From contig JAUQQQ010000001.1 of the NCBI GenBank assembly GCA_030549815.1, positions 135,846-199,845 of the forward strand: DNA of 64,000 nt, read 5' to 3'. Under the pieces are notes generated by a model, which saw only the letters and a list, made by a program, of their open reading frames with translations, was not told the DNA's origin and ran no database searches. The stretch is from a bacterium (GTDB lineage: Bacteria; DRYD01). The translations under genes and the position numbers were made by a program. Numbering within the stretch: the stretch's first letter is position 1; every line of letters begins with the position of its first letter. Of this stretch, positions 21,209 to 64,000 are shown piece by piece.

Positions 21209-22312
21209 TTAATTACCTCCTTCTTTTGCAATTATACCTAAATTTGATCCGATAAAATTTTTAGGTTTATTAAAAAACGTAACAACATCAATAATGCAAT
21301 CTTGTTTAGGTTTAACATAGAATACGCTTCCTGGTTTCAAAGCGCGCTTGGTAAAATTAGTTAGCTGCAATACTTTGGAATTAATTGCCAAATTACAAAG
21401 TCCCCTACTCGCTACTGCAATTATATCAAAATTATTATTGTTTTCGCAACTTAAAGAGTCAAATGAAGAATTTTCATCAAGAGTAAAATAAGTTAAAAAT
21501 AAAATTCTATAAATATTATCTTTTTTTAATTCTATTTTTTGTTCAAAATAATCTTTAAAATTTTCTAGTTCTACATTAAAGGAAGCGGTTCTCATTTCTC
21601 CTCCTAATTTTATAACTCCCACTTTTCTAAGATACTCCACTAACTCATTTTCACCTTCGAATCTGCTTTTAATATTGCTATTATTCTTATTATCGAAATC
21701 AAATTCGACAAAAAACACGAATTTCCATCCATTTTTTAGCCTACTAAAAACTATTCTATAAAGAGCATCATCGTCTTTGACGGTATTTGTTTGGTTATCA
21801 ATCTTAATTCCAATTCTTCCTTCTTTTTCAAAAATTTCACTGTAGTGAGCCACATAACTACTGTCTATATCCTCATTTTCCAACCATTTTTCTAGACCTT
21901 TCAAAGATAAGAATCCATTGAAATTTTCTACCTCATCAGGACCTTTATAAAACAAACAAGATTCATTAATTTTAGGTTCATAAATTTTATTTGTATAATT
22001 AGATTTTACTAAAATTTGTTTATTTTCATCAAGTAAAGACAAGCAATGAAAGGTATTATTATTTTTTGATTTTACGATATTGGCAGGAAAAGGGAAATAT
22101 AAAGTTTCACCCTTTATTAAAAAAGGACCATAAACATTTTTTAGAATTTTATTTTCGTTGATACCAGGAAGATCCTGGAAGATTGAAGAGATAGCACCGG
22201 CAAAAGTATGAGGAAAAGGGAACTCTATACTCTGAACAACTGACCCGATATTAAAAGGTTTCCCCCCACCAAAAAATAATACATCAAAAGGCTCTATACA
22301 AAATTTTATCAT
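21209..22312 (-). CDS. cmr3: Type III-B CRISPR protein Cmr3
   Basis: A 367-residue RAMP protein with the Cmr3 start: IEPFDVLFFGGGKPF, then the FPFPHTFAGAISS block, and the later LGGEMRTASF. Cmr3 binds the 5' tag of the crRNA next to Cas10. The start overlaps the cas10 stop by four bases (ATGA). Its end is one base from the cmr4 ATG, and the cmr4 ribosome site lies inside the last cmr3 codons. Confidence 0.9.
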   Translation of the reverse strand: MIKFCIEPFDVLFFGGGKPFNIGSVVQSIEFPFPHTFAGAISSIFQDLPGINENKILKNVYGPFLIKGETLYFPFPANIVKSKNNNTFHCLSLLDENKQILVKSNYTNKIYEPKINESCLFYKGPDEVENFNGFLSLKGLEKWLENEDIDSSYVAHYSEIFEKEGRIGIKIDNQTNTVKDDDALYRIVFSRLKNGWKFVFFVEFDFDNKNNSNIKSRFEGENELVEYLRKVGVIKLGGEMRTASFNVELENFKDYFEQKIELKKDNIYRILFLTYFTLDENSSFDSLSCENNNNFDIIAVASRGLCNLAINSKVLQLTNFTKRALKPGSVFYVKPKQDCIIDVVTFFNKPKNFIGSNLGIIAKEGGN

Positions 22313-25131
22313 CCTTCAACACCTACCTTGTAATCTTCCTTGAAATAACTTTCATCAAATTTCAAAAAATCATCAGCTCTTATTTCGCTTGCCAAAAACC
22401 GAGCAATAACTAAAAAGTTAGCAAAATAAACCATCGATTTTCTATTATCTTTAATATCTTCTAAAAAGAAATCAAAAGTAGATTTAATATAATCAAAATT
22501 ACTCTTATCCCCCTTACTTGAATTATAAAATATTCTTTTTAATTCGATATTAAATAAACAGGTATCACACTCTATTTGTTCTTCTACCAATTGAAGAATT
22601 TTATAAGCAAATCTTGAGGAGACTTCTCCCTCTCTAAACATTTTGATAATATTTAATAAACGTGGTATTAGCCTCCATTTTCCACCAGTAATTCTGATTT
22701 CTCCTGAGTTTTTTATAACCTTTATGCAGAAAGAATTTCCATTGAATTCATTTTTTGCCAATTTTTCTGTTAATCTTGCTTCTTCGATTGCCAGATATAG
22801 GGGATATTTATAATGAACGATAGTTATTCCTGTGCTTGCAGTAGCTTTGGAAGATAGTGTAGATTTGAAACTTTCTTGCAATTTATAAGCACAGGCAAAT
22901 ACAGAATCGATAGGTAGTAAAGCCAGCACATCGTCTCCACCAGCATAAACCACTTTACCATAAAACTCATCCTCAACCACCTTTTTGACTTCTTCTAAAG
23001 CGAAATGAGATAGCCTCCTACTAAATAACTGGTGTATTGAAGGACTATTAGGATGCTTCTTATAGATAATATCAGGACAAATTTTTCTAATAGCCTCTAC
23101 CACCTTTAGATGAATTGATTGTTCAATAGTTAAATTAAATTCTCCTTTTAGCCATTTGCCTATTCGGTCCCCATCCATCATCAATATAGCATAATATCGA
23201 GAAGGATTTATTTGATACTTTTCAAGGTCTCCTTTTATTTCTTTTAGTTTATCTTCATCCACCTCCACACCGTATTCTCTTTTTATTCTTTTCTTATCAT
23301 AGTTTTCCTTAATCAACCACTGCCCATCTATATTAAAAAGAGGATTGCATTTCAGTTTAGGAACAGAAAATGAATTCTGATTAATTTTTTGTTGAATCTC
23401 TTGAATTTTTTTGATAAAATCTGGGTCAATATTTTGATTGATAATCTTCGTTCCGATTGATGCCATTTCAGATGTAGATGGAAACTTTAATTTGATACCC
23501 AATTTTTCATCAGCAAAGAGAGGGAACAGGCGTTTAGTAATACAAACACCACACAAATGCTCATTTTCTTGTATTAAATTTATTAAACTTCTGTAATTTC
23601 TATTTTCTTTACATAAATCTTGAATTTTTATTATTGCGTTAAACTCTCCACATAGAGTGCATTTGCGTTCATCTGATTCATAAAATAAGTTTTTGATTGG
23701 ATTTCTAAAACTTTTTCTTGCAGCTAACAACTTTTCAACCAAAACCAAAAGCAATGAATAAACAGATCCCAACTTAGTTGTAGTTTTATAAGCAGGATTT
23801 TCTGTTAAAAATTTCACGATTTCAAGTAATTCATTATCATTAGATAAACTTACCAAAAATCTATAGTCTTGTATGGCTTTCTCATGTGATGTCTTAGTTT
23901 CTGAATTAATATCCAATTCATCAGTCCAAGGTAGGATAGCCCAATAAATTTGGAAGTAAGACAGCAAATGTTCCTCTATTTTTTCATAAGAGGTAAATCC
24001 GAGTTTTTGTGATATAAATTCAGATAGTTCGTGTATGGCGTTTTTGAAACTTTCCTCAACTTTTGAAGCAATATTAACATCAAAAGGAATGATAGCCAAA
24101 AATCTATTTGGAAAGTTCGCTATCATCAATTTTTCTTCGTTATATTGTAATTTATTAACATCATCTTTTACATAATCTTTCAATTTTTCGATTATTTTTT
24201 TATCTACGAGTGGTTGAAAAAGGAGATTTGGATAAATAATATGATCAGGTCCGTATTCATCAATTATAAATTCCATTGCTTTAAAAGTTAGATAAGAAAG
24301 AATATAACTACCACTCCACAGATCTGAGGTTTTTCTTGCTACCTTTATGAAGTCTTGAACAGGATTTATAGTGAACAAAAGGAATGCAGGAACCTTATTA
24401 TCGGTGATACAAGCATAAACGGCACTGGTTTGAACAAGGTGATCGTATATCGAATGATTGGGAGCTCTGGTATCAGCCGGTAAATATTCGATCCCATCTA
24501 TAAGTGGGACAAAACGCCATAAAAACCAATACGCAGCCTCATATGCAGCATCATACTTATCCTGCTTGTCCTTATTAAAATCTTTTACAGTATCAATAAT
24601 TTTTTCATAATCTTCTTTTACTTTTTCCTTACTAAAATAATGTTTAATATTTATTTTTTTGTTTTCGTCAAGAATATCAATAAATTCAGTATCTTTAAAA
24701 TCTACTTTTATTTGTTCATTATTAGAAAAATCCTTTACAACAATTCTACTCATTGCAGAAGCAATATGATCAGCGTAATCAATAAATTTATTTTCTGTGT
24801 ATTCTCCCAAACCTACCTCTTCTTGTTTGTTTTTCGCTTCTTTTTCATGTTCTACAATATCCGGAGCTTTAGGTTTATTTTCTATGTATTCACCTAAACC
24901 TACCTCTTCTTGTTTACTTTCCGCTTCTTTTTCATGTCCTACAGTATCAGGAGCTTTAGGTTTATTTTCTATGTATTCAACCAAACCTACTTTTTCCATT
25001 ATCCTCTCCGCTTCTTTTTTGTGGCCTCTAATATCAAAAGCTTTATAAATGGGGTCGTGTAGGAAAGCAGCGACTTTTCCTCTAAATCTTTTTTCTTTAG
25101 ATTTTTCTTCTTTAGATTTTTCCTGACTCAT
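22309..25131 (-). CDS. cmr2: Type III-B CRISPR Cas10 (Cmr2) with tandem triplication in the HD region
   Basis: A 940-residue Cas10. FLHDPIYKAF (His25-Asp26) is the HD-nuclease motif and YADHIASAMSR near residue 121 is the next conserved helix. Between them three 29-residue units begin at about residues 33, 62 and 91 (each with a GLxEYIENKPKAP-like end), where other Cmr2 proteins have one short segment. A zinc finger follows (CTLCGEF near 490 and CGVC near 526). The first palm motif is MDGDRIGKWL near 650 and the cyclase motif GGDD is at 731-734, so cyclic oligoadenylate synthesis is expected. No CARF effector is in the window. It heads the operon and has a GGAGG ribosome site. Confidence 0.94.
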   Translation of the reverse strand: MSQEKSKEEKSKEKRFRGKVAAFLHDPIYKAFDIRGHKKEAERIMEKVGLVEYIENKPKAPDTVGHEKEAESKQEEVGLGEYIENKPKAPDIVEHEKEAKNKQEEVGLGEYTENKFIDYADHIASAMSRIVVKDFSNNEQIKVDFKDTEFIDILDENKKINIKHYFSKEKVKEDYEKIIDTVKDFNKDKQDKYDAAYEAAYWFLWRFVPLIDGIEYLPADTRAPNHSIYDHLVQTSAVYACITDNKVPAFLLFTINPVQDFIKVARKTSDLWSGSYILSYLTFKAMEFIIDEYGPDHIIYPNLLFQPLVDKKIIEKLKDYVKDDVNKLQYNEEKLMIANFPNRFLAIIPFDVNIASKVEESFKNAIHELSEFISQKLGFTSYEKIEEHLLSYFQIYWAILPWTDELDINSETKTSHEKAIQDYRFLVSLSNDNELLEIVKFLTENPAYKTTTKLGSVYSLLLVLVEKLLAARKSFRNPIKNLFYESDERKCTLCGEFNAIIKIQDLCKENRNYRSLINLIQENEHLCGVCITKRLFPLFADEKLGIKLKFPSTSEMASIGTKIINQNIDPDFIKKIQEIQQKINQNSFSVPKLKCNPLFNIDGQWLIKENYDKKRIKREYGVEVDEDKLKEIKGDLEKYQINPSRYYAILMMDGDRIGKWLKGEFNLTIEQSIHLKVVEAIRKICPDIIYKKHPNSPSIHQLFSRRLSHFALEEVKKVVEDEFYGKVVYAGGDDVLALLPIDSVFACAYKLQESFKSTLSSKATASTGITIVHYKYPLYLAIEEARLTEKLAKNEFNGNSFCIKVIKNSGEIRITGGKWRLIPRLLNIIKMFREGEVSSRFAYKILQLVEEQIECDTCLFNIELKRIFYNSSKGDKSNFDYIKSTFDFFLEDIKDNRKSMVYFANFLVIARFLASEIRADDFLKFDESYFKEDYKVGVEG
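24790..25040. repeat. Three 87-base imperfect tandem repeats inside cmr2
   Basis: The segment coding for residues 33-120 of Cas10 consists of three direct units of 87 bases. For example the plus-strand words cctacctcttcttgttt recur at 24811 and 24898, and a diverged form starts at 24985. The length is an exact multiple of three, so the frame is kept. The two downstream units resemble each other more than the first, suggesting stepwise duplication. Confidence 0.8.
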
Positions 25132-26146: not shown

Positions 26147-26281
26147 GGGATTGTAATGCCTCGGTCGATTAGTACCGGTCACCTTCACCCATTTCTGAGC
26201 TTCCAGCTCCGGCCTATATACCGGGTATTCTACCCGGGACCTTACCCGCTTGGCGCGGTGGGAGACCTTATCTTGGGGTGT

Positions 26282-26312
<31 letters not shown>

Positions 26313-26537
26313 ACGTCCGCACATGGCTACCCGGCGCTGCTAACGGCTTAACAGCCGGTACACCAGCGGTGCGTTCGCTCCGGTCCTCTCGTACTAGGAG
26401 CGACTCCCCTCAAGTCTCCTGCGGCAGCAGCAGATAGGGACCGAGCTGTCTCACGACGCTCTGAACCCAGCTCACGTACCGCTTTAACGGGCGAGCAGCC
26501 CGACCCTTGGGACCTTCTCCAGCCCCAGGATGCGATG

Positions 26538-27366
26538 CACGTTTCTCCATCGTTTCCGATGGCGCAGACTATATCATCACCCTGATTTTTCCAGGGGTCC
26601 GGCGTTTTGACTTACCTTTTGGTAAGTCCTTCGGCTACGCGCCTCCAGTCGTTACAGGGTCAAAGGAGTTTATATTTCATTACCGGAGGTACATAGTGAC
26701 GAATAAGATCACAAAAATAATTTGCTTCCTTAGCTGGTATATAAATCACCCACTGCAACTTGCAAACTCTATGAATTCTACTTTTAATACCAAAATTACT
26801 TTTTAACACCTCCGATAATTGCTCAACTTCTTTTAGATTGAATGATTGGGTATTTAATCTCAATGCTTTGCAATCTTTACGAAGATGTCCATCATCCATA
26901 TACCATATTGCTAAAGCTAATACATTAACCAATATGTTTTTGATATTTGGAGGTACCCTTTTTTTGTTGTTCACATAGAAAGCTTCTGCATACCAACTCA
27001 ATTCAGATAAAGTTTTAGTATCCAGCCTTATGTGTTCATAGTATTTATGTGTGCGCTTGTCCCAGACTTTTACTGCTTTTGGAAATCCATTAACTATTGG
27101 CTGCAGCAATTTATACTTCCATTCTACATATTCCCTAACTTTAAATTGGTGATCAATACGCATACGCCATCCTCGGCCATTGCGTTCCAAACAACCGTCA
27201 CCAAGAAGGCTACCAATAATGACAGAATGAATTGGTTCTGGTAACATTTTTAACTCCTTTGACTTCCCACGGGATTACCCTCGATCCTGGGATTTCCAGT
27301 CGTTAGGGCTCCCCCGTTATAAGCCGGATGTACCTACAGGGTTACCCCTGTAGAGGCCCAAATCTG
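26538..27366 (-). other. Group I intron at about E. coli 23S position 2511
   Basis: The minus-strand exon ...GATGTCGGCT is interrupted and resumes as CATCGCATCCTGG; joined they restore the conserved 23S sequence. The intron is 829 bases and ends in G before the 3' exon, as group I introns do. The last exon bases GGCT can pair with GGCC a few bases into the intron, with the required U-G wobble at the splice site (P1). A P7-type element GATATAGTC lies at 26564-26578. The endonuclease frame occupies 26660-27247. Position numbering is from memory of the E. coli sequence. Confidence 0.9.
26660..27247 (-). CDS. LAGLIDADG homing endonuclease in the ~L2511 intron
   Basis: A 195-residue protein with two LAGLIDADG-type motifs: IIGSLLGDG at about residue 10 and LAIWYMDDG near residue 113. 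The acidic residues of both are kept, so one polypeptide can form the full active site and act as a monomer. Such enzymes cut intronless 23S alleles at the insertion site and so spread the intron. It resembles the enzyme in the neighbouring L2449 intron. The frame is intact. The GC content falls back to the genomic average inside the frame. Confidence 0.88.
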   Translation of the reverse strand: MLPEPIHSVIIGSLLGDGCLERNGRGWRMRIDHQFKVREYVEWKYKLLQPIVNGFPKAVKVWDKRTHKYYEHIRLDTKTLSELSWYAEAFYVNNKKRVPPNIKNILVNVLALAIWYMDDGHLRKDCKALRLNTQSFNLKEVEQLSEVLKSNFGIKSRIHRVCKLQWVIYIPAKEANYFCDLIRHYVPPVMKYKLL

Positions 27367-27428
27367 AGCCGACATCGAGGTGCCGAACGGCGCCGTCGAT
27401 ATGAACTCTTGGGCGCCACAAGCCTGTT

Positions 27429-28269
27429 CACCTTTATCTCAGGTTTCCCTGAGGGTAGACTATATCTTCATCCCTGCTAACCTATTAGCAAGGAGCGCGG
27501 CGTTTTGACTTACCTTTTGGTAAGTCCTTCGGCTACACGCCTCCAGTCGTTACAGGGCCAAAGGAGATTTTATATCTTATACTCTCTATAACATAATCTC
27601 TTATTATTTCTATCAACTTATCTCTTTCTTTACTACAAAATACTAACACCGGATATCCTTTTTTAAACCTGTTTTTAGGTTTTAAATTATGTATTTCTTC
27701 TAAAGCTTTTAGCAATTTTTCTATACCTTCTTTATCATATTTTGGTAGATATATTTCGAGACATTTATTTTTGGTATCTATACTTCCATCATCCATAAAC
27801 CACACTGCTAAAACCAGTGGATGCTTTAGGATGGTTTTTACATTTTCTGGTACCACTTTTTTTCCTTCTTTATAAAACCATCTTTTATATTTACCTAATA
27901 TAGGTGATGAATGAGTTTGAAATCTATAGTAATAGTATTCTTTTTGAAATTTAGGATTAAACCTTTTTATTAACTTTGGTTTGTCTTGCGCTAAGTTTTT
28001 TAATTTTTCATATTTCCAGAAAATGTAATCTTTTTGTTTTGCTGAGTGTTCTATTTTAAGTCTTGCATTTTTTTTACCTGTTTTTTGTAAGTACGCGTCA
28101 CCTAGTAAAGTTCCCCATATGATTAATCTTTGTTCTTTAAGGATCATTATTTACACTCCTTTGGCTTCCCTCGAGATTACCCCACGCTTTTTTTCAAGCA
28201 GGAGGGCTCCCTCGATATAAGCCGCGTTCTTGTAGATTGGTTTCCCAATCTACGGGACAACTGTTAGTT
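27429..28269 (-). other. Group I intron at E. coli 23S position 2449
   Basis: The exon ...CCGGGGAT is interrupted and resumes as AACAGGCTTG, restoring GGGGATAACAGGC of the peptidyl transferase centre. The insertion is two bases before A2451. The intron is 841 bases and ends in G. P1 pairs exon GGGAT with GTCCC in the intron. The P7-type element AAGATATAGTC is at 27458-27468. A 69-base stretch (27498-27566) is nearly identical to one in the next intron (26600-26668). Position 2449 is a known insertion site in other organisms. Confidence 0.92.
27533..28147 (-). CDS. LAGLIDADG homing endonuclease in the L2449 intron
   Basis: A 204-residue two-motif LAGLIDADG protein: IIWGTLLGDAYL at about residues 8-19 and LAVWFMDDGS near residue 112. 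The second motif keeps both acidic residues; the first reads GDA rather than GDG but keeps its aspartate. It is related to the ~L2511 enzyme in layout and spacing. Expected to cleave at the 2449 site of uninterrupted 23S genes. The stop lies inside the 69-base segment shared by the two introns. Confidence 0.87.
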   Translation of the reverse strand: MILKEQRLIIWGTLLGDAYLQKTGKKNARLKIEHSAKQKDYIFWKYEKLKNLAQDKPKLIKRFNPKFQKEYYYYRFQTHSSPILGKYKRWFYKEGKKVVPENVKTILKHPLVLAVWFMDDGSIDTKNKCLEIYLPKYDKEGIEKLLKALEEIHNLKPKNRFKKGYPVLVFCSKERDKLIEIIRDYVIESIRYKISFGPVTTGGV

Positions 28270-28775
28270 ATCCCCGGAGTAACTTTTATCCGCTGAGCGA
28301 CGGCCCTTCCATGCGGTGCCGCCGGATCACTAAGCCCTGCTTTCGCAACTGCTCGAGGTGTCCCTCTCACAGTAAACCCGCCTTATGCCTTTGCACTCAA
28401 CACCCGATTTCCGACCGGGCTGAGGCGAGCTTTGGACGCCTCCATTACCTTTTAGGAGGCCACTGCCCCAGTGAAACTGCCCACCTGGCATTGTCCGCAC
28501 TTCGGCGTTAGTGTTTCCAGCTACCAAGGGTGGTATCCCAAGGGCGGCTCCGTGCCGACTGGCGTCGACACATCCCAGCCTCCCACCTATCCTGTACAAG
28601 GCAGCCAAAAACACAGTACCAGGCTACAGTAAAGCTTCACAGGGTCTTTCCGTCTAGCTGCTGCTACCCTGCATCTTCACAGGGTGTGCAATTTCACCGT
28701 GCCCCTCCCCGAGACAGAGTCCCAGTCGTTACGCCTTTCATGCAGGCCACAACTTACGTGGCAAGGAACTTCGCT

Positions 28776-29511
28776 CACTTTATCCTTAACTTTCGTTAAG
28801 GAGTGGACTATATCTTATCTTTTGCTCCCGGTCCTCTTTCTTCACCACAAAGGAGTTGTTTCTTTAACTCTATTAATTTTTCTCTTTTTTGAGTATTCAT
28901 CGAATTTACGATATCTATTATTTCAACTAAACCATCAACTGTTAAATGATCTTTTCTTTTAATTTTATTTATTACTTTTCTGAATTTTATGAAATTTACA
29001 TTTTTTATTGTTTTAAGAGGATTTTTTGTAAAGAAGTCGCATATTTTTTCTAAATGTTCCAATTTTCTTACTACATAACACCATCTATCATCATGATTTT
29101 TTTTAACGATGCCAAATCCGAAGAATTTTTTTATTGCATATAACACTTTTATATCTCTCTTATGTTGAACTATTACAAACTCTGGTAAAACCTGAAAACC
29201 ATTTTTTAGATCTTTTTTTTGATTGATTGATACATGAAAACATCCTTCTCCATCCACAAATCCGACTATCCAATCTTTTGTTAGCTTCATTTTTCCCTCC
29301 TTCGTTGGTGAAGGAGCAAAAGATATTAGCGTATAGTCTCTGAGGATCCCCTCTTTTATAAGAGGGTTTCCTGCGGGTTACCCAATCCCATCGGATTTTT
29401 ACTATTCTATAAAGAATAGTACCGTGGGCTCTTGGAGGATTTTATCCTCCCTCTGCACAAAGCAGAGACAGGGCTTTCCCGCATATAGCTAATTTCAGGC
29501 AACGATTAGTT
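28776..29511 (-). other. Group I intron at E. coli 23S position 1931
   Basis: The exon ...CCTAAGGT is interrupted and resumes as AGCGAAGTTCC, restoring the universally conserved CCTAAGGTAGCGAA. The intron is 736 bases and ends in G. P1 can pair exon AGGT with GCCT. Classic core elements are seen: CTCAGAGACTATAC (R, 29331-29344) and AAGATATAGTCC (S, 28805-28816), which pair as P7. The endonuclease frame lies between R and S, that is in the P8 region. Thermotoga 23S introns are known at the same site. Confidence 0.93.
28808..29290 (-). CDS. LAGLIDADG homing endonuclease in the L1931 intron
   Basis: A 160-residue protein with a single LAGLIDADG motif, WIVGFVDGEGCFHV, at about residues 8-21. Single-motif enzymes act as homodimers on near-palindromic sites. 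The rest (LPEFVIVQHKRD, RWCYVVRK, KNVNFIKFRKV) matches the usual core. It is related to the enzyme of the L1917 intron more than to the two-motif enzymes of the 3' introns. It is expected to cut around position 1931. Confidence 0.9.
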   Translation of the reverse strand: MKLTKDWIVGFVDGEGCFHVSINQKKDLKNGFQVLPEFVIVQHKRDIKVLYAIKKFFGFGIVKKNHDDRWCYVVRKLEHLEKICDFFTKNPLKTIKNVNFIKFRKVINKIKRKDHLTVDGLVEIIDIVNSMNTQKREKLIELKKQLLCGEERGPGAKDKI

Positions 29512-29525
29512 ACCTTAGGACCGTT

Positions 29526-30307
29526 CATTCTGTTACTTTCCCCTTTTCGGGTACTGACCATAGGTTTTTGCCTATGGCGGCTATACCTTTCGGTATAGCT
29601 CTGCACATCGCTGTGCAGATCGGACCATATCTTGTTGCAGAATTACCTCTGCAACTCCGGCGTATGGTCTCTGAGGATATATTATTCTTCCCAACTATTC
29701 AAAATTTCTTCGTCAGTATACTTACTTTTTATTTTTTTTCTCAGTTTTAGAATCTCCTTTAATTGTTCTTTGGTTAGTTTTTTAGACGAAGTTAAAATTT
29801 CTACTATTTTTTTGAATTTAGAGAAATCATTTTTTTTGGTAGCTGATAGGAAACCAAACCTATTGAAAAAAGGTATAACATTTTCTCTTATAGAGTTGAT
29901 ATTGTTTACTTCGTAATACCATACTCCGTCTTTTCTTTGTCGTAACACTCCACATTTAAGATATCTTTTCATTAATGCAAGCACTGTAGGATCTTTTTGA
30001 GATACATTAAACACTGGAGTTATTTTCCATTTATTCTTATAATCTTCGCGTGGTCTAAAGACCACCATAAAACTACCTTCTCCATCAACAAAACCTGCTA
30101 TATAATAACCTATATTGGTTGGTATTTCCTTTATTTTAAGCATAATTTAATTACTTTGGGAAGAATAATATCTTTCCTGCTGATTGTCCGCGACCTACTA
30201 TTTTTACTGCCACCTTCTTCGCCAAAACTGGCTAGTGGCGAGTAAGTAGGTATACTCGGACTTCCCAGCATATAGCCGGATTTTTTTACGTAACTACAGA
30301 CGGTTCT
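29526..30307 (-). other. Group I intron at E. coli 23S position 1917
   Basis: The exon ...CCGTAACTAT is interrupted and resumes as AACGGTCCTAAGG. The intron is 782 bases and ends in G. Its P1 is excellent: exon GTAACTAT pairs over eight bases with GTAGTTAC, ending in the U-G wobble. The R element CTCAGAGACCATACG (29661-29675) pairs with the S element AAGATATGGTCC (29622-29633). Here the endonuclease frame lies before R, probably in the P6 region, unlike the L1931 intron. Coxiella carries a group I intron at 1917. Confidence 0.93.
29682..30143 (-). CDS. LAGLIDADG homing endonuclease in the L1917 intron
   Basis: A 153-residue single-motif enzyme: YIAGFVDGEGSFMV at about residues 12-25, followed by PVFNVSQKDPTVL and WYYEVNNINSI, typical of homodimeric LAGLIDADG nucleases. 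It should cleave uninterrupted 23S genes near position 1917. The frame is intact. Relationship to the L1931 enzyme is visible in motif and layout, but the sequences differ widely. Confidence 0.9.
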   Translation of the reverse strand: MLKIKEIPTNIGYYIAGFVDGEGSFMVVFRPREDYKNKWKITPVFNVSQKDPTVLALMKRYLKCGVLRQRKDGVWYYEVNNINSIRENVIPFFNRFGFLSATKKNDFSKFKKIVEILTSSKKLTKEQLKEILKLRKKIKSKYTDEEILNSWEE

Positions 30308-31067
30308 ATAGTTACGGCCGCCGTTTACCCGGGCTTAGGATCAGACCTTCGCGGAGAGAACTCCGCTAAGCCCTCACCGTAACCTTCGGGCACCGGGCAG
30401 GCGTCAGCCCCTATACATCGCCTTACGGCTTAGCAGAAACCTGTGTTTTTGATAAACAGTCGCCAGGACCGCTTAGCTGCGACCTCTGCACTTGCGTGCA
30501 GGAGGCACCCCTTCTCCCGAAGTTACGGGGCCAATTTGCCGAGTTCCTTAGGGAGGGTTCTCACGCGCGCCTTAGCATACTCTGCCCGTCCACCAGTGTC
30601 GGTTTCCGGTACGGGCTATACTTACCATCCATTTCGGTCTTTTCTTGGACGTTAGCTTACCTAGTAGTCCCCGAAGGGACGTCCTGGTTCGGCTTGCGCC
30701 TACCCACCGAGCATACCACCTGCCCGTAAGGCTTAACTAACGCCGCAACCGAAACTTCAGCGGTAAGTATAGGGGACGGAATATTAACCGTCTGTCCATT
30801 CGGCTACCCCTTTCGGGTTGACCTTAGGTCCCGCCTAACCCAACGCCGACGAACGTTGCGTTGGAAACCTTGGACTTGCGGCGGACAGGATTCTCACCTG
30901 TCTTTACGCTACTCATGCCTGCATTCGCACTTCCACACTCTGTCACCCGAGCTTACGCTCTAAGCTTGATAGTGTGGAACGCTCCCCTACCGCTTGCAAA
31001 CCTATGTTTGCAAGCCCATAGCTTCGGCACCAGGCTTAAGCCCCGATGAATCTTCGGCGCGTTTCTC

Positions 31068-31101
<34 letters not shown>

Positions 31102-31722
31102 ATAGCTGCTTCTAAGCTAACCTCCTGGCTGTCTCCGGAGAAACACTTCCTTCTACACTTAGCCTGGATTTGGGGGCCTTAGCTGATGGTCTGGGCTCAT
31201 TCCCTCTTGACCACGGACCTTATCGCTCGCAGTCTCACTGCCCCTTCACCTTAGCGGTATTCGGAGTTTGTCGAGGTTTGGTAGGCTGTTAACCCCCTAG
31301 CCTCAACAGTGCTCTACCCCCGCTAAGTTTAAACGGGACGCTGCGCCTAGACGCATTTCGGGGAGAACCAGCTATCACGGAACGCGATTGGCTTTTCACC
31401 GCTATCCCCACCTCATCGGACGGTTTTGCAACACCGACCCGTTCGCGCCTCCCGACGGTTTTGGCCGTCGTTCACACTGAGCAGGGATAGATCGTCCCGT
31501 TTCGGGTCTGCCGCCAGCGACTATTGGCCCTATTCAGACCATTCGCTTTCGCTACGGCTCCAGGTATAACACCCCTTAGCCTTGCCACTGACGACAACTC
31601 GCAGGCTCATTAGGCAAAAGGCACGCTCTCAAGTGCTTACCATCCCGTAAGCAACTCTCGAACGGTTTGTAGGTCCGCAATTTCAGGTCCTATTTCACTC
31701 CCCTACCCGGGGTACTTTTCAG

Positions 31723-31754
<32 letters not shown>

Positions 31755-32321
31755 GCAAGGAGTATTTAGCCTTGGAGGATGGTCCCCCCAGATTCACACA
31801 GGATTCCACGTGTCCCGTGCTACTTGGGAATACTACCCAGGTTAATCTATTATTTTTCGCATACGGGGCTTTCACCCTCTATGGCAGGCCATTCCAGACC
31901 TCTTCTGCTAAATAATAGATTAAACCCGAAAGCTTGGCAGAGCTTTCCGGTAGTATCCCACGACCCCGCTACTACAACGGCTGCCACCTTTAACATAGTA
32001 ACGGTTTAGGCTTTTCCCCGTTCGCTCGCCGCTACTAAGGGAATCTCATTTTGATTTCTTTTCCTGTCCCTACTGAGATGTTTCACTTCGGGACGTTGTT
32101 TAAGCCCTAAGAAGGGCAGGTTTCCCCTTCGGAGACGCCCGGATCACAGCTTCCTTACCAGCTCCCCGAGCATTTCGGCGGTTAAGGAACCGTCCTTAAT
32201 TCTCCTTGCGCCAAGCCATCCATTACGGACCCTTACTAAATTATGATTACTTACTATTCACTTATCCCTATCTCTATTTTAATGAGGATAGCTAACAAAA
32301 TAGGTTTGATAAATTAATCCT

Positions 32322-62535: not shown

Positions 62536-62744
62536 TTTTCATGAAATTCATTTCCCGGCTTTCTTACTTCCAAGCTATTAAAAAATTAAACACAAAAAAT
62601 TACTTACCTTCTTTACTTTCATAATTACTTAAAAACACAAAACAGAGGTTAAAACATTTTCAATTCAATATTGTAGGTATTAGTTTATCCTTTTATTCTT
62701 TTAAATTTTCCTAAAGGTAATAATCGATTGAATTTGTAATTATA
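62536..62744. other. AT-rich interval between sirtuin and CRISPR array
   Basis: About 210 bases, very AT-rich, without a gene. It may hold the sirtuin promoter and the array trailer or leader. No diagnostic motif is seen that fixes which. Confidence 0.4.
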
Positions 62745-64000
62745 GTTTCAATCCCTTATAGGTAGACTGAAAATAAATTCGATTTCAGGTCTACTTCAAA
62801 TCTGTTCTTTGTTTCAATCCCTTATAGGTAGACTGAAAATTTGGAAAAAACATGGGCTCTCCTTTTGTAATACCAAGTTTCAATCCCTTATAGGTAGACT
62901 GAAAATCCATTAGCAGTTTTTTCTACGTGATTATAATTTTCAGTTTCAATCCCTTATAGGTAGACTGAAAATAAGCTTTAATATCTATAAATATGTGAAT
63001 AAGAACTAGTTTCAATCCCTTATAGGTAGACTGAAAATAAGAAAGTTAAAGCAGAAGAATTGGAAGGAAAGACCTGTTTCAATCCCTTATAGGTAGACTG
63101 AAAATACGAAGTAGGATTAAGGAGTGTAAGCGTAAAATATGGTTTCAATCCCTTATAGGTAGACTGAAAATTATTGAATTCATTGAAAAAGAAAAAGCAT
63201 TTATTGCGTTTCAATCCCTTATAGGTAGACTGAAAATTATCTTGTGGGTGCCAATATGGGTGTGCCTTTTGTAAGTTTCAATCCCTTATAGGTAGACTGA
63301 AAATAAAAAGACAATAAAATTATAGCCTTTGAAATACAGTAGTTTCAATCCCTTATAGGTAGACTGAAAATTAGATAACAAAACATAACAAGGGAGTAGG
63401 TTTATCCGTTTCAATCCCTTATAGGTAGACTGAAAATATGCCAAATTCTGGCATCGAATATTTGCCGATGAAAGTTTCAATCCCTTATAGGTAGACTGAA
63501 AATTTGCAGTAGAAATGGTAGATTTAGTTGAAGATTTTTAGTTTCAATCCCTTATAGGTAGACTGAAAATAAAGAAAAATGCTTTATTATCAAAAATTGG
63601 CACAAAAGTTTCAATCCCTTATAGGTAGACTGAAAATGATTATTATCGCAACCATATGCCAACAGGTATAAATGTTTCAATCCCTTATAGGTAGACTGAA
63701 AATCTGGCATCAAAAGGTAAAGAAAATTATCAAAAGATAGTTTCAATCCCTTATAGGTAGACTGAAAATTCCAAAAAAGTCAAGCCTTTCCAGCCATCCC
63801 CTATCGGTTTCAATCCCTTATAGGTAGACTGAAAATAAAAAACCCTTCCAAGGAAAAAGGAGGTGTGTAAATAGTTTCAATCCCTTATAGGTAGACTGAA
63901 AATATTTATTGTTATTTCCAAAGAATTTGCTGAAAGAATGTTTCAATCCCTTATAGGTAGACTGAAAATATTCATCTACCTTTATCATTTTACCAACTCC
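62745..64000 (-). CRISPR. CRISPR array, 19 repeats visible, open at the window end
   Basis: A 30-base repeat starts at 62745 and recurs at 62811, 62877, 62943, 63009, 63076, 63142, 63208, 63275, 63342, 63408, 63474, 63541, 63608, 63674, 63740, 63807, 63874 and 63940. All copies look identical. On the plus strand it begins GTTTCAATCCC and ends GACTGAAAAT. Spacers are 36-37 bases. Read on the minus strand the repeat ends in ATTGAAAC, the usual 8-base crRNA 5' tag of type I and III systems, so I infer minus-strand transcription with the leader beyond 64000. It is 37 kb from the cmr operon and no cas gene flanks it here. Confidence 0.95.

Follow-up and report, generated by a model that had tools for sequence, protein, structure and literature searches.

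Four group I introns with homing endonuclease genes in one bacterial 23S rRNA gene, and a core tract shared by two of them

INTRODUCTION

Group I introns that carry LAGLIDADG homing endonuclease genes (HEGs) are known from several bacterial 23S ribosomal RNA (rRNA) genes. Synechococcus sp. C9 has three in one 23S gene, at L1917, L1931 and L2593; L1917 is also occupied in Thermotoga subterranea, and several hosts have introns at L1931 and L2593 (Haugen et al. 2007, PMC1995217). Three 23S introns, whose type was not determined, have been described in Thiomargarita (PMC4853749). For the Candidate Phyla Radiation (CPR), a survey reports insertions in 82% of the 23S genes, with maxima of 16 per rRNA gene and 5,750 bp of insertion per 23S (Tsurumaki et al. 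2024, PMC11270868). Here we describe a 23S rRNA gene with four group I introns (I1 to I4), each bearing a LAGLIDADG gene, in a bacterium of the GTDB lineage DRYD01 (GCA_030549815.1). The gene lies in a stretch of 64,000 nucleotides (contig JAUQQQ010000001.1, positions 135,846 to 199,845), called the window below, to which all coordinates refer.

Synechococcus sp. C9 resembles the present host in two of its sites, in its full LAGLIDADG genes and in open reading frames (ORFs) that overlap core helices, but has three introns, one of them at L2593, and only single-motif enzymes, with no I-SceI-type enzyme at L2449 or L2511. The Thermotoga introns at L1931 and L1917 share their sites and single-motif LAGLIDADG enzymes with I1 and I2, but belong to another host and occur one per gene in the table of Haugen et al. 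(PMC1995217). The CPR genes (PMC11270868 and our loci L018-L053) are multi-intron and combine LAGLIDADG_1 with LAGLIDADG_2 genes, as in the host; sites 1917 and 1931 are common to both, and so are 2449 and 2511 in the present loci. Among the named CPR genomes reached through I3/I4-like enzymes, many 23S genes hold at least three insertions. The relatives of the host are not CPR. In most of the CPR genes sampled, intact insertions stand beside ORF-less and unclassified ones; in the host all four introns are intact. The 23S gene of another non-CPR bacterium, the metagenome-assembled genome (MAG) of Chloracidobacterium sp. UBA7656 (locus L025), likewise has four introns with LAGLIDADG sequences, but at other sites (L1923, L2262, about L2502 and L2593) and with the endonuclease of the third intron split by a frame break.

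L2449, the site of I3, is also the insertion site of the yeast mitochondrial omega intron, whose ORF sits in P8. I3 is like the omega/I-SceI system in its two-motif LAGLIDADG_2 enzyme, which matches I-SceI at E 5e-8, and unlike it in its bacterial host, its ORF position in P6 and the distance of the protein similarity.

The first-pass annotation of this DNA had called four introns with four open endonuclease genes in one gene exceptional. Four intact introns are at the high end, but, given three in Synechococcus C9, up to 16 insertions in CPR and four introns in L025, not without precedent. The same annotation rightly took group I introns to be known from bacterial 23S genes, and the cases that it listed were incomplete compared with Haugen et al. 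2007 (PMC1995217).

RESULTS

Anatomy of the gene and its insertion sites

The 23S gene runs on the minus strand from 32246 to about 26147, and the 16S gene is at 33839-32326. Exact matching to the exon flanks, which also fixed the junctions of I1 and I2 around a 14-nt exon, delimits four insertions of 782 (I1), 736 (I2), 841 (I3) and 829 nt (I4). They stand after E. coli U1917, U1931, U2449 and U2511, exactly at the positions first proposed as approximate. A T precedes each insertion and G is the last base of each. The flanks of all four agree with E. coli rrlB, and the 23S spliced in silico measures 2,912 nt, with 70% identity to rrlB. Introns account for 3,188 of the 6,100 nt of the gene (52%), close to the half estimated earlier. 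The parts of the gene, all on the minus strand, are:

30308..32246, minus: 23S exon 1 (E. coli 1-1917); Rfam LSU_rRNA_bacteria from 32246, junction after U1917
29526..30307, minus: intron I1, L1917, 782 nt, IC1-like, ORF in P6 loop; junction, P3-P9 covariation, 9-bp P1
29512..29525, minus: exon 2, 14 nt (AACGGTCCTAAGGT), between I1 and I2; gives the exon strand of the I2 P1
28776..29511, minus: intron I2, L1931, 736 nt, IC1-like, ORF in P8 loop; junction, P1/P10, Rfam group I model at 39 bits
28270..28775, minus: 23S exon 3 (E. coli 1932-2449); Rfam, junctions
27429..28269, minus: intron I3, L2449, 841 nt, IA1-like (P2, P7.1, P7.2), ORF in P6 loop; junction, empty site in G004, covariation
27367..27428, minus: exon 4, 62 nt (E. 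coli 2450-2511), in the peptidyl-transferase centre; junctions
26538..27366, minus: intron I4, L2511, 829 nt, IA1-like, ORF in P6 loop; junction, empty site in G005, covariation
26147..26537, minus: 23S exon 5 (E. coli 2512 to end); Rfam, junction

Three genomes of the same genus (G001-G003), two of the same family (G004 and G005) and one of the same order were compared; G005 and locus L024 are one contig (record: Deltaproteobacteria bacterium isolate RSWP7). The 23S gene is absent from the assemblies G001-G003. The spliced 23S sequences of the host and G004 are 93.3% identical. G004 is empty at L2449, where 40 nt are the same as in the spliced host sequence, and reads through L1931 without interruption; G005 is empty at L2511, with 39/40 nt matching. 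At the level of sequence, these intron-minus alleles confirm three of the junctions; the fourth was set by comparison with E. coli and with other loci in which L1917 is uninterrupted.

The 23S gene of G004 (L134:4411-5934, minus strand) itself contains introns at L1917 and L1923, separated by an exon of 6 nt (AACGGT), which is exactly the stretch that could form P1 with GCCGTT of the second intron. Such an exon between two HEG-bearing group I introns is unusually short.

Group I structure

All four insertions fold as group I introns, with a U·G pair at the 5′ splice site, a 3′-terminal G and helices P3-P9 that show compensatory changes. P1 comprises 9 bp in I1, 4 in I2, 5 in I3 and 4 in I4, and P10 is clear in I2 (5 bp) and I3 (3 bp). 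The terminal G and the wobble pair had been reported for each intron, as had a P7-type element; the former are present in 4/4, and the latter corresponds to the P7 3′ strands AAGATATGGTC (I1), AAGATATAGTC (I2 and I3) and ATGATATAGTC (I4). I1 and I2 form P3, P4, an extended P5, P6, a 7-bp P7, P8 and P9, and in I2 the pairs of P3, P4, P6, P7, P8 and P9 are standard throughout. I3 and I4 form P2, P3-P6, P7, P7.1, P7.2, P8 and P9, and are called IA1-like by resemblance, from their P7.1/P7.2 extension. The extended P5 of I1 and I2 covaries, and their IC1 label follows that of Haugen et al. for L1917/L1931 rather than a subgroup model. The ORF lies in P6 in I1, I3 and I4 and in P8 in I2, and several ORF ends reach into core helices, a feature described by Haugen et al. 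2007 (PMC1995217).

Rfam found no group I intron in the gene, and the structures were therefore built by hand and tested by covariation. For the I1/I2 type we used an ORF-less alignment of ten introns at L1917, L1923 and L1931, because the ORF of I2 is in P8 rather than P6 and a full-length MAFFT alignment misplaced this intron. In every helix, pairing was higher than in all 300 shuffles or nearly all of them; two-sided changes were found at 5/6 pairs of P3 (54/54 cells paired), 11/11 of P6, 8/8 of P8 and 5/6 of P9, and at 2 pairs of P7. For the I3/I4 type (22 introns at L2449, L2500, L2504 and L2511), all helices except the nearly invariant P7 exceeded every shuffle; two-sided changes occurred at 8 pairs of P2, 4 of P3, 4 of P5, 8 of P6 and 6 of P9, and P7.1 and P7.2 were also paired, with two-sided changes. 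The shuffles ignore relatedness; slid controls were lower throughout (mostly 0.2-0.6 paired). The group I pairing of I1-I4 is not due to chance.

Endonucleases

The four endonuclease genes are:

29682..30143, minus: I1 LAGLIDADG_1 gene, 153 aa, one motif (AGFVDGEG); Pfam PF00961, 72.8 bits, cut-off 23.1
28808..29290, minus: I2 LAGLIDADG_1 gene, 160 aa, stop codon within the P7 3′ strand; Pfam PF00961, 100 bits
27533..28147, minus: I3 LAGLIDADG_2 gene (I-SceI-type, two motifs), 204 aa; Pfam PF03161, 137 bits
26660..27247, minus: I4 LAGLIDADG_2 gene (two motifs), 195 aa; Pfam PF03161, 144.5 bits

As the first-pass annotation had stated, all four frames are intact; each exceeds its Pfam LAGLIDADG cut-off, and they are the only LAGLIDADG matches in the whole genome. 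The motifs with acidic catalytic residues are GFVDGEG in I1 and I2, and LLGD and MDDG in I3 and I4. The 3′ end of the I3 gene traverses P6′, P7 and P7.1. The I2 enzyme has its best match in PDB 5gkk, a 'putative homing endonuclease' (E 1.2e-51), and the I4 enzyme matches I-SceI (E 5e-14) and is 62% identical to the L2511 enzyme of G004. Against G004 or G005, the enzymes of I1, I3 and I4 show nonsynonymous divergence (dN) of 0.30-0.34 and synonymous divergence (dS) of 1.0-2.6 (0.30 and 2.6 for I1 against G004), with dS so near saturation that dN/dS is rough; the values indicate that purifying selection has kept these three genes.

In a tree of 43 proteins, endonucleases cluster by insertion site across phyla, the pattern that would be expected of horizontal homing into fixed sites. 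The L2449 clade (I3, G005, Aquificota, Pyrinomonas and two CPR) is supported at 100/100, and far from that clade the enzyme of I4 pairs with that of the G004 L2511 intron, also at 100/100; the CPR L2511 enzymes (L018, probably L037) are not firmly placed with this pair. I-SceI was compared by sequence match only, outside the tree. I1 and I2 resemble the known L1917/L1931 introns, and I3 belongs to the L2449 (omega/I-SceI) lineage. A scan of viral sequences gave distant endonucleases only.

Introns at 2511, for which the first-pass annotation had suggested a search, occur in G004 and in the CPR loci L018 (with an enzyme) and L021 (264 nt, without an enzyme). We found no paper naming an L2511 intron in the open-licence literature; sites 23IS9-23IS11 of the CPR survey (PMC11270868) may include some of the sites described here.

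Two observations concern introns in other hosts. L2449 introns with I-SceI-type genes occur in Pyrinomonas methylaliphatogenes K22 (L029) and in an Aquificota MAG (L019). An 8.2 kb contig titled Candidatus Woesearchaeota archaeon (L039) carries at L2500 an intron and an endonuclease that closely resemble those of the CPR loci L043 and L050; it probably comes from CPR by misbinning and not from an archaeon.

A tract shared by I3 and I4

I3 and I4 have in common an 86-nt repeat (repeat family D6) and an exact run of 39 nt. One tract is present in both introns:

26601..26668, minus: recipient tract copy in I4 (P6′ to P7.2); 66/68 to I3, 46/71 to the L2511 intron of G004
27499..27566, minus: probable donor tract copy in I3; identity comparison, repeat family

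Over these 68 nt, which begin at P6′ and stop just short of the intron-specific part of P3′, the identity of I4 is 97% to I3 and 65% to the L2511 intron of G004; in P7.1-P7.2 the counts are 42/43 and 21/46. Outside the tract the preference is reversed, with 49% to I3 against 71% to G004 in the 5′ core, 46% against 64% in the endonuclease part and 54% against 80% in the 3′ part. L2449 introns outside the host are likewise closer to the I4 tract (68% for G005 in P7.1-P7.2) than L2511 introns are, and I3 is therefore the likely donor. The tract stops where I3 (GCCGCG) and I4 (GCCGGA) pair their own P3 strands, so that both cores remain paired. I4 appears to have been overwritten from P6′ to P7.2 by a copy of I3, in an intron-to-intron conversion that may have proceeded through break repair or template switching.

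A recent ectopic transposition of the whole intron from L2449 to L2511 would also make the two introns alike, both being IA1-like with LAGLIDADG_2 enzymes and sharing the 39-nt run. This candidate was rejected as highly unlikely: everywhere outside the tract I4 is nearer to the L2511 intron of G004 than to I3, and its enzyme sides with the G004 enzyme, not with the L2449 clade.

P6 and the Shine-Dalgarno site

In I3 and I4, the 5′ strand of P6 coincides with the Shine-Dalgarno site of the endonuclease gene:

27252..27263, minus: I4 P6 5′ strand (GTCAAAGGAGTT), also Shine-Dalgarno site of the I4 endonuclease; pairs with 26659-26670, P6 covariation
28156..28165, minus: I3 P6 5′ strand (GCCAAAGGAG), also Shine-Dalgarno site of the I3 endonuclease; pairs with 27557-27566, P6 covariation

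The strand contains AAAGGAG, 6-8 nt upstream of the start codon, and pairs in P6 with the end of the ORF; a like arrangement is visible in the L2511 intron of G004 and in L019. The folded intron would mask the ribosome site, so folding may block translation of the endonuclease. Alternatively, the overlap could result from conserved coding of CTCCTTT.

Surroundings of the gene

Neither the 16S-23S spacer nor the rest of the window contains a 5S rRNA or tRNA gene, and the 5S gene seems to be unlinked from the 16S-23S operon. Directly downstream of the 23S gene is a Cas10/Cmr2 gene (22309-25131) of a type III-B CRISPR (clustered regularly interspaced short palindromic repeats) system, whose N-terminal part contains an 87-bp in-frame tandem repeat in 3 copies (24787-25045). 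A CRISPR array lies near the window end (62739-64000), with 19 copies in the window of the repeat GTTTCAATCCCTTATAGGTAGACTGAAAAT (Rfam CRISPR-DR2).

DISCUSSION

The group I identity of the four insertions, proposed in the first-pass annotation, is borne out by the junctions, the empty sites, P3-P9 covariation, P1/P10, the Pfam matches and the endonuclease phylogeny. Together with the anatomy of the gene, purifying selection on three endonucleases and the mosaicism of I4, these observations lead us to consider it almost certain that the gene houses four independent mobile group I introns with homing endonucleases, which were acquired separately, and that I4 was later converted by I3.

After transcription, each intron would fold, bind guanosine in P7 and cut 3′ of the U in the U·G pair of P1, and the exons would be joined by attack on the phosphate after the 3′-terminal G of the intron; four such reactions would yield a continuous 23S. 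Each endonuclease is predicted to recognise and cut its own intron-free site (L1917, L1931, L2449 or L2511), into which the intron would be copied by repair, while an occupied site, split by the intron, would be immune to its own enzyme. The single-motif enzymes of I1 and I2 probably act as homodimers, and the two-motif, I-SceI-type enzymes of I3 and I4 as monomers. The introns would have been acquired by homing one at a time, with sites gained and lost within the family, and conversion or template switching within the gene would later have replaced P6′-P7.2 of I4 by the 68-nt module of I3. Splicing, cleavage, homing and the route of the exchange are inferences.

Several points weigh against this interpretation. 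P10 is weak in I4 (2 bp) and requires a bulge in I1. P7 of the I3/I4 type hardly varies and gives no covariation signal. A cmscan of Rfam over the 23S gene gave no group I hit even with the E-value limit relaxed to 5. The first-pass annotation had proposed such a covariance-model check; with full-length introns, RF00028 did score I2 (39.2 bits), I1 (27.8) and I4 (24.5), all under the cut-off of 50, which is a search threshold and not a defining feature of group I introns, and did not report I3. The low scores are probably due to the ORFs of 460-615 nt, which break the model. To these points are added the near-saturated dS noted above and the fact that splicing of I1-I4 is read from DNA. One 23S gene was detected in the 1.59 Mb, 90%-complete assembly, whose 23 contigs leave room for a second copy.

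Intervening sequences (IVSs), which RNase III or other processing removes while the ends stay unjoined, so that the 23S is fragmented, are common in bacterial 23S genes, and the CPR survey (PMC11270868) regards short insertions at other sites as IVS-type. Known IVSs occupy variable stem tips, whereas I1-I4 interrupt domain IV and the peptidyl-transferase centre at invariant positions, carry the P1/P3-P9 structure with covariation, and have exons that equal those of uninterrupted relatives exactly or nearly so; we find it very improbable that they are of this kind. An error of assembly, or an additional 23S copy without function, might be suspected in a draft of 23 contigs, where the 86-nt repeat of I3 and I4 could mislead the assembler. 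Against this stand independent family members with introns at shared sites and 93% identical exons, the fit of each intron's P3 pairing and 3′ part, on both sides of the repeat, to the homologues of its own site, and intact endonuclease frames under purifying selection, which leave such an error barely credible. Archaeal rRNA introns of the bulge-helix-bulge type, removed by a splicing endonuclease, likewise carry LAGLIDADG genes, but the group I core, U·G pair and terminal G at all four sites, and the occurrence of nearly all homologues found as group I introns in bacterial 23S genes, reduce this origin to a negligible chance.

What looks new is the host lineage, the L2511 site, which is also used in CPR, and the tract passed from I3 to I4. 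We consider it likely that group I introns residing together in an rRNA gene exchange catalytic-core modules: I4 would be a chimera at L2511 that took P6′-P7-P7.1-P7.2 from I3 at L2449, about 900 bp away, with a breakpoint short of the intron-specific P3 pairs that lets the ribozyme stay functional. In the same measure, multi-intron genes would be places of recombination, and L2511 a further recurrent group I site, used in the host family and two CPR genomes.

To conclude, our work adds a small, isolated bacterial lineage to the hosts of multi-intron 23S genes whose homing endonucleases are intact, and describes a bacterial relative of the omega/I-SceI system for which natural intron-free alleles exist in related genomes. 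For cutting at conserved 23S sites, the four enzymes are candidates for new site-specific nucleases. Exchange of a module between introns is clearly exemplified by the I3-to-I4 tract, and the host family represents a small natural series of intron gains and losses across five sites.

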